This document shows positions 8,120 to 12,834 of a stretch of DNA of 64,000 nt, in pieces. Origin of the DNA: Facklamia languida CCUG 37842 (GTDB taxonomy: Bacteria; Bacillota; Bacilli; Lactobacillales; Aerococcaceae). Position 1 is the stretch's first letter; every line of letters starts with the position of its first letter. Under the pieces are notes generated by a model that was not told the DNA's origin, made no database searches, and saw only the letters and a program-made list of their open reading frames with translations. Location of the stretch: the NCBI RefSeq assembly GCF_000245795.1, contig NZ_JH601133.1:367288-431287 (forward strand), given 5' to 3'. The translations under genes and the position numbers were made by a program.

Positions 8120-8697
8120 TCACTCCTCACCTTCAGACCCCAATCGATTATGGGTCGAGTTTTTATCATATGTTTTTCCCAGAATAATTGTCAAAAAGTA
8201 ATCGGCTAACTCTGCTTCACTGAGCGCGTCCTCTTGGGTTAACCACCAAATTAAAAGGTTCATAAAGCTGGTCTCAAAGAAAGATTCCAGGAGATTCTCT
8301 GGAAAACCTTTAAAGTTTTGCCGAATTTGAGTAATCACTAAGGGGTATAAATATTGGGTCAGGTAATTAGAAAATTGTTGATTAAAATAATTATTATGAG
8401 AGAGCAGTAAGGTTTTAATCTTGTCTTTGTTCTGTTTAAAATGATAGAACAAGTGAGTGGTCATTTCACTTGGATCCACAGGCACTTGTCGCTCCACAAA
8501 GGTGTGTTCAAACAACTCTATGCAAACTTGCTCCAAGAGTTCTTCCTTAACAGCATAATGATCGTAAAAGGTAGATCGTCCAATATTGGCACGTTCAATA
8601 ATGTCTTTGACCGTGATTTTATCGAGTGTTTTTCACTTAATAATTCAATGAAGGCTTTATAAATACCTTATCGAGTTTTTTGTACGCGTTTATCCAT
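8120..8697 (-). pseudogene. TetR-family regulator, inactivated (SczA-like position)
   Basis: From ATG 8697 the frame reads M-D-K-R-V-Q-K-T-R and then meets TAA where CAA (Gln) would fit. It continues G-I-Y-K-A-F-I-E-L-L-S-E-K, shifts frame at an A-run near 8631-8637 (one A apparently lost), and goes on as T-L-D-K-I-T-V-K-D-I-I-E-R-A-N-I-G-R-S-T-F-Y. That is a typical TetR helix-turn-helix. The remaining C-terminal part is open to 8120. Repaired, the protein would be about 192 aa, normal for the family. A TTG at 8536 could give a 138-aa fragment without the DNA-binding domain. It is divergent from a truncated CDF transporter, as in pneumococcal sczA-czcD. Confidence 0.85.
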
Positions 8698-8706
8698 GAC
8701 TCCGGA

Positions 8707-8750
8707 CAAATTAGACATAATGCACCTTATCTTACATCCTGTCTAATTTG
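8707..8750. promoter_or_regulatory. Perfect 11-bp inverted repeat, probable operator of the TetR/CDF pair
   Basis: CAAATTAGACA (8707-8717) and TGTCTAATTTG (8740-8750) are exact reverse complements 22 bp apart. They lie in the divergent intergenic region. TetR regulators commonly bind such dyads between their own gene and a divergent target; binding here is inferred. Confidence 0.6.
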
Positions 8751-8754
8751 ATTA

Positions 8755-8782
8755 TTGCCCTCCATTCTAACTCTTCTATAAT
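8755..8782 (+). promoter_or_regulatory. Probable promoter of the CDF pseudogene
   Basis: -35-like TTGCCC (8755-8760), a 16-bp spacer, and consensus -10 TATAAT (8777-8782). It lies just downstream of the inverted repeat and upstream of a GGAGG ribosome site and GTG start. Confidence 0.5.
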
Positions 8783-8838
8783 AAAGATATCGAACACCTT
8801 GTTCAATAAATTCACCTTTAGTATAGGAGGTCTTTTTG

Positions 8839-9003
8839 GTGAAAGCAAGTCGTAATATGCTCATTGCTTTTAGCTAAAATTTAGTATTTGCTATCATTGA
8901 AGTTTTTGCTGGATTAGCTTTTCAATCTAGTGCCATCTTAGCGGATGCCGTCCATGACTTTGGCGATGCCATCGCAATTGGTTTCTCAACGCTTTTGGAG
9001 CTT
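8839..9003 (+). pseudogene. Cation diffusion facilitator (CzcD-like) N-terminal remnant
   Basis: GTG at 8839 follows an AGGAGG ribosome site. It encodes K-A-S-R-N-M-L-I-A-F, then an in-frame TAA, then N-L-V-F-A-I-I-E-V-F-A-G-L-A-F and S-S-A-I-L-A-D-A-V-H-D-F-G-D. That is the classic TM1-TM2 region of CDF metal/proton antiporters, including the H-x-x-x-D metal-site motif. Similarity stops after about 55 codons, at about 9003; the remaining ~80% of the gene is missing. The context (divergent TetR gene and a dyad between them) suggests a former zinc or cobalt efflux module. Confidence 0.8.
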
Positions 9004-9142
9004 GTTTCATTAGATGATCGATCAAGCTTCCATCAATAGGTGAACCGATGATGACCAGTTAAATCGTAAACAGCCTGTAAGAGGGCTCCAGTTTAAGGTC
9101 CACAGCTAAGAAAGCTAAAATATGTTTTTTCAGAAATCGCAT
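9001..9142 (-). pseudogene. Possible ABC-exporter N-terminal remnant (antisense, frameshifted)
   Basis: On the minus strand, ATG 9142 gives M-R-F-L-K-K-H-I-L-A-F-L-A-V. Frame changes then give G-A-L-L-Q-A-V-Y-D-L-T and L-V-I-I-G-S-P-I-D-G-S-L-I-D. The pattern resembles the first transmembrane segment and the P-x-I-I-G-x-x-I-D motif of ABC exporter permeases. It needs at least two frameshifts, and the rest of the gene is absent. This is weak, pattern-based recognition. Confidence 0.3.
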
Positions 9143-9171
9143 GCCTTATATTTAACGAGTATACTTGTCAA

Positions 9172-9179
9172 AATAAAGG
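9172..9179. repeat. Target-site duplication, left copy (AATAAAGG)
   Basis: The 8-bp direct repeat AATAAAGG immediately precedes the IS. It is identical to the bases right after the IS, and 8 bp is the size typical of ISL3-family insertion. Confidence 0.9.
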
Positions 9180-9192
9180 GGTTCTATAATTT

Positions 9193-9235
9193 ATAGGGTT
9201 GATGGAAGAAAAAATCTTCCGTCAACCCTATTTTT
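9193..9235 (+). terminator. Hairpin with T-run inside the IS left end
   Basis: A 16-bp stem (9193-9208 with 9216-9231, one G-T pair), a 7-base loop, and a run of T's. One arm contains the terminal inverted-repeat core ATAGGGTTGATGG. It would stop transcription entering from outside and so shield the transposase gene. Seen in the sequence; the function is inferred. Confidence 0.6.
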
Positions 9236-9302
9236 AAATACACAAAAACACAGAAGTCCGATATATTTAAAGTGCTAACAAAAAACAGAAAGGACCCTGT
9301 GC

Positions 9303-10601
9303 ATGACTAATGATATAAGAAAACTCCTCAATATTAAAGACCCAAATATCCATTTCTCCCCAGATTCTGTTCAAGAACAAAACAATAAGCTCTATATCCA
9401 CTGTTCACTCACCTATCCTGTTCATACCTGTCCAAACTGTCACCACGAAGGTTGTGTCGTTAAGAATGGTTCCCGTACTTCTAAAATCACCTACCTCGAA
9501 TCCGCTGGACAAGCGAGTTATCTCATCCTCAATAAACAACGATTCCTCTGTAAACAATGTCACCATTCATTCACTGCACAGACACAACTTGTGGAGAAAA
9601 ACTGCTCCATCTCAAGAGCCACCAAACAAAAGATTGCTAGCTTAGCCACCAAAACCTATTCAGAAAAGTCGATCGCCGATCAAACGTATGTTTCAATTCA
9701 TACAGTCCGTCGGGTCGTGGATACATTCTCTTCCGCAGTCCGTAAAAGGCCAACGACACTCCCCAAACATCTTTGTTTTGATGAATTTAAGTCCACACGA
9801 ACGGTGAACGGGGCCATGAGCTTTATCTTCTGTGATGCCACCGACCACCAAGTCATTGATGTCGTAGAGGATCGACGATTAAGATACTTGAAGGCCTACT
9901 TTTACCGTTATAGTCGCAAAGAACGAAAAAAGGTCCAAACCATTTGTATCGATATGTACACTCCCTACATCGAATTGATCCGTCAACTCTTTCCTAATGC
10001 CGCCATTATTATTGATCGCTTCCACATCGTTCAAGCCCTTAATCGTGAATTAAATCGGTATCGTATCCAATGGATGAATCAGGTCAAATACCACGATAGA
10101 CGGCTCTATAATAAGCTGAAGCGGTATTGGAAACTGTTCTTAAAGAAGGAGACAGACCTTGACCACACACACTACAGCCGGTTTACCCTCTTTGATTCTT
10201 TAACGAATACTGGTCATATCGTCGATTATCTCTTAGATCAAAATCAAGTCTTTAAAGAATCGTATCGGATGGTTCAAAACCTTCGTTATGCCCTAGAAAA
10301 GTCTGATTACGATCAGTTTATGATGACGCTACATCAAGCACCTAACCAACATCTCGCGCCTGGATTAAGAAGGGTTTTAAGAACCTTTAAGAAATTCCAG
10401 CCTTATATTTCCAACACCTTTGACCATCCAACCATTACCAATGGCCCAATCGAAGGGATTAACAATAAAATTAAAGTCCTTAAACGCAATGCCTATGGCT
10501 ACCGTAAGGATACCCATTTCAAGAACCGCATTCTTTTAATATCGCGACTGTATGTGTCAGGAAGAAAAGAAAAAGAGACCAAGCAACAACTTGTTGCTTA
10601 G
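9303..10601 (+). CDS. ISL3-family transposase
   Basis: The protein has 432 aa, full length for ISL3 transposases. An N-terminal zinc-finger region (C-P-N-C near 46-49 and a second C-K-Q-C near 84-87) is followed by a helix-turn-helix (I-A-D-Q-T-Y-V-S-I-H-T-V-R-R) and the DDE catalytic domain. Likely acidic residues are D in C-F-D-E-F, D in C-I-D-M-Y-T-P-Y or I-I-D-R-F-H, and E in N-G-P-I-E-G-I-N-N. The C-terminus K-E-T-K-Q-Q-L-V-A is encoded by a small inverted repeat. It is the only gene of the element, and the frame is undamaged. Confidence 0.95.
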   Translation: MTNDIRKLLNIKDPNIHFSPDSVQEQNNKLYIHCSLTYPVHTCPNCHHEGCVVKNGSRTSKITYLESAGQASYLILNKQRFLCKQCHHSFTAQTQLVEKNCSISRATKQKIASLATKTYSEKSIADQTYVSIHTVRRVVDTFSSAVRKRPTTLPKHLCFDEFKSTRTVNGAMSFIFCDATDHQVIDVVEDRRLRYLKAYFYRYSRKERKKVQTICIDMYTPYIELIRQLFPNAAIIIDRFHIVQALNRELNRYRIQWMNQVKYHDRRLYNKLKRYWKLFLKKETDLDHTHYSRFTLFDSLTNTGHIVDYLLDQNQVFKESYRMVQNLRYALEKSDYDQFMMTLHQAPNQHLAPGLRRVLRTFKKFQPYISNTFDHPTITNGPIEGINNKIKVLKRNAYGYRKDTHFKNRILLISRLYVSGRKEKETKQQLVA

Positions 10602-10640
10602 TCTACTTTCAATACCATCAACCCTATTTGACAAAGAGCC

Positions 10641-10648
10641 AATAAAGG
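10641..10648. repeat. Target-site duplication, right copy (AATAAAGG)
   Basis: AATAAAGG follows the IS right end directly and matches the left copy base for base. It runs straight into a terminator hairpin, so the IS inserted at the foot of that hairpin. Confidence 0.9.
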
Positions 10649-10743: not shown

Positions 10744-12834
10744 CTAACGATTCACTGCACGATAGATTTGGTTGGCTAGATTTCCGATAGCGGAATCTGA
10801 CCAAGCCCGCGTCAGAATGGTCAGATAGAATGGCTTTTGTCCTTCTACATAACCAGCTGCATTGTGGAATCCACCATAGTCCCCAGTCTTTTGATGGGTT
10901 TTGACTGGAATTGCATCAATTCGAGTCCCATCCGATTGAGTATGAGTTAATAACTGCTTAACGGTTGGGTCTTTCTGCTGCCAAATATGCTTCACTAACT
11001 TAGTAAACTCGCGCGCACTGATATTACGGTCATAGCTTGAATCCCCATAAGCTTCTTGAGTAAACCGGTTAAGATCGGCACGGTTACGATAACCCACATG
11101 ATGTAAGAGCAGGTCCGCTGCCAAATTATCTGAAATACTGGTTACTTTCTCTACCAGGTAACGGACGGAGTAAGTCTTATTCCAGTAACCTGGTTGAAAA
11201 CGGATATCGCCTGAACCACCTGTTCCATAGAAGTAAGATTCTGGATGCTGGTGTGCAGCATTAGTATAAGGGAAACGAGTATCCCAACTGATGATTCCTT
11301 TTTCAATCTGGTCTTGAACATAGCCTAAGAGCACTAGTTTGGTTGAAGAAGCTCCATAGAAGGCTTGTGAGTCTGCATTCCAAGAAGCTGTTCGAGAATC
11401 ACCATTCACAGCACTTTCAAAGAAAACTGAGAGGTTGGCATTTTGATACTGGTTCAAGACATTCTGCACCGCTTCATGAACCCCACTTAGGTTAGCATCT
11501 GATCCATCTCTAGGTGGTGTTTCTGGTCTTGGTGTGTGACCAGAATCCTCACCCTTACCATTACTTACCAAGAGTCGGTCTCCTGGATGAATCATATTAG
11601 AGGTCATGCGGTTCCATGCCTTAATTTGATTTATGGTCACACCAAACTGATTGGCAATCTTCCATAAGGAGTCGCCAGGCTTAACCCTATAGTAAGTCGT
11701 TGGTTGTGGGGAAGGCGTTGGCTGAGGTGCTTCTTCTTCTGGTTTCTCTTCAGGCTTAGGTCTTTCAGGACGAGTTGAACCATCTGTCGTCCCTTTGGCT
11801 ACAATCAGCCGATTACCTGCATATATATAATTTGATGTCAAATTATTCCATGCCTTTAGCTGAGCAACTGAAATATGATGATCATTGGCAATCTTCCATA
11901 AATAATCACCAGACTGAACAGTATAGTATTTAGTTGCTTGTTCTCGAGGCTGCGCGGGACTAGGTATTGGTTGGTTAACCGATTCGTCCTTATCCTCTGG
12001 TTGTGGTGTTGGCGTTGGTTGAACAGGTTGGCTAGGCTGAGCAGGTGCCTCTGACTTCCCAACACGCAGTTTGTTCCCTGGATGAATCATATTTGAAGTG
12101 AGGCCATTTAACCGTTTCAATTCATTGATGGTGAGGCCATACTTGTTCGAAATCAGCCACAGAGAGTCACCAGGCTTAACTGTATAATAGACTGTCTGCG
12201 TACGATTTGAAGGATTAGATGGGGTCTCCGTAAGTCTTGGTTGAGCGGGTCTTTCAGACGGATTAGCAGGTCGGCTGGGTTGTAGTCTGGTTGCTGATTG
12301 CGCCTCTTTTACCACTTTCAAGCGGTCACCGGGGTGGATCATATTGGAACGGAGTCCATTCACTTGCTTGAGTTGTGTAATAGTCATTCCATGGTGGTTC
12401 GCAATCGCCCATAAAGAGTCACCAGGGCGAACAGTATAGGTCCCTTGAGTCATAGGTCTAGGTGTCGTAGACTCTACACTTGGTTGACTACTCGTTGAAG
12501 GCGTCTCATTCGAAGGCGCCTCAGTAGATGGCGTCTCTGAAGGCTGTGATGCTGGAGGATTTGTCTCAGGTCTGGTCGGAGTGACGGATGGTTCTTGACT
12601 GGGGTTTGTCACAACTAACTGTTGCCCTGAGTAGAGGTAATTCGTTGTTAATTGATTCCAGTCAATAATATTTTTTACTGTTATTCCATACTTACTAGCA
12701 ATTAAAGCTAGGTACTCTCCGTGCTCAACTGTATGGGGCTTCGTTTGAGCTGATATTGATGGATTCACCGTCGCAACCACCGCCACCGAGGCGATTAATG
12801 CGGATGAAGATAGAAGAAGATCTCTTACTTTCAT
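10744..12834 (-). CDS. Secreted protein with five LysM repeats and a serine beta-lactamase/PBP-type domain
   Basis: The protein has 696 aa. A signal peptide (about 1-30, ending S-I-S-A-Q) is followed by five LysM peptidoglycan-binding repeats at about 34-76, 132-175, 216-259, 303-346 and 381-424, separated by Pro/Thr/Ser/Glu-rich linkers. The C-terminal domain (about 450-696) has the three penicillin-recognising motifs: S-S-T-K (Ser496, Lys499), S-D-N (568-570) and K-T-G (649-651). It is therefore a wall-bound class A beta-lactamase-like or DD-peptidase-like serine hydrolase. Whether it hydrolyses beta-lactams or acts on peptidoglycan cannot be told from the sequence. The ribosome site AGGAAGG fits the ATG. 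Confidence 0.9.
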   Translation of the reverse strand: MKVRDLLLSSSALIASVAVVATVNPSISAQTKPHTVEHGEYLALIASKYGITVKNIIDWNQLTTNYLYSGQQLVVTNPSQEPSVTPTRPETNPPASQPSETPSTEAPSNETPSTSSQPSVESTTPRPMTQGTYTVRPGDSLWAIANHHGMTITQLKQVNGLRSNMIHPGDRLKVVKEAQSATRLQPSRPANPSERPAQPRLTETPSNPSNRTQTVYYTVKPGDSLWLISNKYGLTINELKRLNGLTSNMIHPGNKLRVGKSEAPAQPSQPVQPTPTPQPEDKDESVNQPIPSPAQPREQATKYYTVQSGDYLWKIANDHHISVAQLKAWNNLTSNYIYAGNRLIVAKGTTDGSTRPERPKPEEKPEEEAPQPTPSPQPTTYYRVKPGDSLWKIANQFGVTINQIKAWNRMTSNMIHPGDRLLVSNGKGEDSGHTPRPETPPRDGSDANLSGVHEAVQNVLNQYQNANLSVFFESAVNGDSRTASWNADSQAFYGASSTKLVLLGYVQDQIEKGIISWDTRFPYTNAAHQHPESYFYGTGGSGDIRFQPGYWNKTYSVRYLVEKVTSISDNLAADLLLHHVGYRNRADLNRFTQEAYGDSSYDRNISAREFTKLVKHIWQQKDPTVKQLLTHTQSDGTRIDAIPVKTHQKTGDYGGFHNAAGYVEGQKPFYLTILTRAWSDSAIGNLANQIYRAVNR

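Follow-up and report, generated by a model that had tools for sequence, protein, structure and literature searches.

In streptococci, SczA has been described as a zinc-responsive activator and CzcD as a zinc exporter (PMC8265624, PMC4513243). The stretch of DNA analysed here (64,000 nucleotides from Facklamia languida CCUG 37842, hereafter the window) contains a locus that resembles the Streptococcus SczA–CzcD loci (S. pneumoniae, S. pyogenes and S. agalactiae) in several respects: a TetR-family gene and a CDF gene are arranged divergently with 142 bp between their starts, a GAACA-N3-TGTTC sequence precedes czcD, and the CDF sequence carries the HxxxD motif of zinc-type CDF proteins. Unlike those loci, both of its genes are broken, its TetR protein is 37–47% identical to the intact relatives and falls outside the streptococcal clade, and its host belongs to another family of the same order. 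We conclude, with a probability of roughly 0.9, that this locus is the defunct remnant of an sczA–czcD module, an ordinary pseudogene pair of a known kind.

The sczA-like pseudogene occupies positions 8120–8697 on the minus strand. Read from the ATG at 8697 it begins MDKRVQKTR*GIYKAF..., with a TAA as codon 10 (8670–8668); the frame then changes at a run of five A residues (8629–8633), and the downstream frame, which holds the C-terminal part, is open as far as 8120. An earlier note on this DNA had described a stop at codon 10 and the loss of one base in an A-run, and both lesions are present. The same note derived the stop from a CAA codon, but this has no support in the 38 intact relatives, which carry K, R, A or E at that position and never Q.

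The 138-amino-acid open part of the pseudogene matches the Pfam family TetR_C_8 (41.7 bits). In a maximum-likelihood tree the window protein joins 38 SczA-type proteins with support of 100/98, apart from other TetR proteins, and it retains 40 of the 44 columns that are invariant among those 38; we therefore place it within the SczA clade. It sits there on a long branch outside the streptococcal sequences, with its exact position unsure. This placement and its low identity to the intact proteins make it possible that the regulator responded to a slightly different inducer or acted with a different partner. NCBIfam holds no name for SczA; its best model, both for the window protein and for intact SczA-type proteins, is DhaS, far below the cut-off. 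The closest solved structure to one streptococcal-type SczA protein, 3kkc, is labelled simply ‘TetR family Transcriptional regulator’. A second deep SczA-like branch from the same genus as the strong matches described below (L143 and L144; G203:C34:45287-45880 and G209:C6:58679-59230) has no adjoining CDF gene.

The czcD-type gene survives as a 5' remnant on the plus strand, running for about 55 codons from a GTG at 8839 to approximately 9003, with a weak continuation possible to about 9030. As had been reported, an in-frame TAA follows the first 12 codons (codon 13, 8875–8877) and matching ends near codon 55: the remnant aligns to positions 2–51 of the 198 in the Pfam Cation_efflux profile (PF01545), scoring 33–34 bits, above the family cut-off. 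It is 55–61% identical to czcD genes that are divergent from SczA-type TetR genes, and an HDFGD sequence (the HxxxD motif) can still be read, which together identify it as a divergent zinc-type CDF gene, although the sequence is too short to fix the metal. Roughly four fifths of its length (about 240 codons) has been lost, and no later part of the gene was found beyond the remnant, nearby, or on the far side of a neighboring insertion sequence. Because of the nonsense codons, the frameshift and this truncation, neither gene can work, and the locus is a remnant rather than a working member of its class.

With the window TetR protein we searched 395 genomes from the order and 399 from the class. 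All strong matches (at least 118 bits) fell within one genus of another family, which we infer to be Streptococcus, given how common it is in the order, the size of its genomes and the presence of this gene pair. A divergent CDF gene lies beside the TetR gene in 28 of the 29 such loci that were retrieved from this genus, with start-to-start distances of 122–300 bp, and many of these distances equal that in the window. A scan of genome contigs with the window protein returned two distant Clostridia only, and no close SczA was found in other genomes of the host family, this genome being the sole case. The proposal that the locus has the sczA–czcD arrangement with both halves broken is thus borne out by the pairing in the other genus, the grouping in the tree, and the lesions in both genes.

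The intergenic region contains two dyads, neither of which is assigned a strand. The first, on which attention had previously been drawn as an intact operator-like element, is an inverted repeat spanning 8707–8750 (CAAATTAGACA/TGTCTAATTTG), with perfect 11-bp arms at 8707–8717 and 8740–8750 and a 22-bp spacer. The repeat is indeed perfect and preserved, and 11-bp dyads with a spacing of up to 40 bp are rare by chance (0.8 expected per 64 kb), but it is not the site common to intact pairs: no counterpart was seen among 34 distinct intact promoters. Given the missing counterpart and the long spacer, we rejected it as the SczA operator. Its left arm lies near the position of CAAATTGTTCA in many relatives, and could on that basis be a diverged upstream site.

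The second dyad, GAACA-CCT-TGTTC at 8792–8804, corresponds to a site that most intact sczA–czcD promoters carry. The shared dyad GAACANNNTGTTC is found in 26 of the 34 distinct intact promoters, with the other eight lacking an exact copy; GAACA-N3-TGTTC lies 30–66 bp before czcD in 19 promoters, most commonly at 45 bp. The window contains a single exact copy of GAACA-N3-TGTTC, 47 bp before the czcD start, against an expectation of 0.07 per 64 kb for a motif derived from the promoters of the relatives once the match of the pair was established.

By analogy with streptococci, the intact pair would have functioned as a zinc-export switch: a zinc-sensing SczA would have bound sites like GAACA-N3-TGTTC between the divergent genes, with the dyad at 8792–8804 as its probable operator, and would have switched on the zinc-exporting CDF transporter CzcD. 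In the decayed state the regulator is disabled by a nonsense codon and a frameshift, and the exporter by a nonsense codon and the loss of most of its length. On this reading the switch, which among the genomes sampled is known elsewhere from a single genus, was once present in a bacterium of a different family and later discarded, and the locus is an outlying record of sczA–czcD.

An alternative that we regard as unlikely is that the TetR protein regulated some other transporter and that the CDF fragment arrived separately. The next closest TetR relatives from the host family (35–37% identity) adjoin an EamA transporter gene rather than a CDF gene, and one of the 29 streptococcal-type TetR loci has no adjoining CDF gene. 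A change of partner within the SczA-like regulator clade may indeed have occurred, since two SczA-like TetR genes (L026 and L027; G070 and G065) are divergent from an EamA-type transporter gene. However, many intact pairs have exactly the divergent spacing of the window, and the dyad common to both stands at essentially the same distance from czcD as it usually does in them; both facts speak against this alternative.

We also considered whether the dead module was killed by an insertion sequence that cut czcD, which we find improbable. A 1461-bp ISL3-family element (9180–10640, plus strand; transposase at 9303–10601) starts some 180 bp beyond the last recognizable CDF codon. Its transposase matches DDE_Tnp_ISL3 (PF01610) at 191.9 bits, and the element is flanked by a perfect 8-bp direct repeat, AATAAAGG, at 9172–9179 and 10641–10648, a target duplication in keeping with that family. 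Further copies are present in the genome, two of full length among the six that were retrieved. The perfect repeats indicate a simple insertion that was not itself responsible for the loss of the remaining czcD sequence, and the far side of the element contains no CDF sequence; the insertion lies outside recognizable czcD sequence. An insertion sequence has been associated with a czcD gene before, in a hyper-resistant S. agalactiae strain with IS1381 in the 5' part of czcD (PMC10251203), but in the window the element lies outside the recognizable gene, the truncation of which has another cause.

The intervening sequence of roughly 170 bp (9004–9171, no strand assigned) has no second copy in the genome. 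A fragment of an ABC exporter on its minus strand (9014–9141), suggested by eye, was dropped, as it found no support in Pfam or in the genome itself, nor in 76 genomes of the family, 147 genomes of the genus with the strong TetR matches, or plasmids. Beyond the element, positions 10744–12834 on the minus strand encode a protein with five LysM domains and a beta-lactamase-like domain (PF13354).

We consider it very improbable that the module belonged to a deep SczA branch outside Streptococcus that has otherwise escaped sampling, with the dyad at 8792–8804 kept for another regulator that drives nearby transcription. It is scarcely credible that the module is intact and that errors of sequencing or assembly account for the lesions: one of them alters a single base in a homopolymer, which is a common kind of error, but there are in addition two nonsense codons in two genes, and the missing CDF codons are absent from a genome assembled as a single contig of 1,717,767 bases and 99% complete.

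The dead sczA–czcD module had been suggested to represent a recent loss, to be checked against the malQ region of close relatives. We compared the malQ regions of four genus-mates that carry malQ, and none of the four has a TetR/CDF pair beside it; one (L098) shares the malQ and pyruvate dehydrogenase gene neighborhood with the window. These comparisons therefore do not show that an ancestral pair was lost from beside malQ; a module that was acquired and then decayed would fit equally well, as would one kept in a single lineage. A search for CDF genes found no czcD-type one in three of the four genus-mates and an unpaired one in the fourth (L100). Near that unpaired gene lies what appears by eye to be an Erm-like rRNA methyltransferase gene (L100:7138-7872, G002). 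A plasmid origin was also considered and set aside: no plasmid DNA matched the region or the insertion sequence, and plasmid protein matches were distant (below 60% identity).

The earlier note had further raised the possibilities that the strain has lost zinc and cobalt efflux, in line with a low-metal niche, or that it carries another copy elsewhere. A search of the rest of the genome found no second czcD, which disposes of the latter. The former is unsupported because two other exporters are intact, and the locus alone gives no ground for calling the strain zinc-sensitive. A gene for an ArsR/SmtB-type regulator, located at 1,089 kb, is followed by an intact one for a P1B-type ATPase (cadmium/zinc class, 614 amino acids) that carries a CPC motif and through which zinc export may persist. 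The sole other CDF gene of the genome, at 746 kb, belongs to the same CDF family as the czcD remnant and is of the MntE/FieF type; in contrast to the remnant it is intact and has no link to a TetR gene. Its best specific NCBIfam score is to MntE, below the curated cut-off. NxxxD and DxxxD motifs are also present, which we take to be those of manganese exporters; together these features suggest that it handles manganese.
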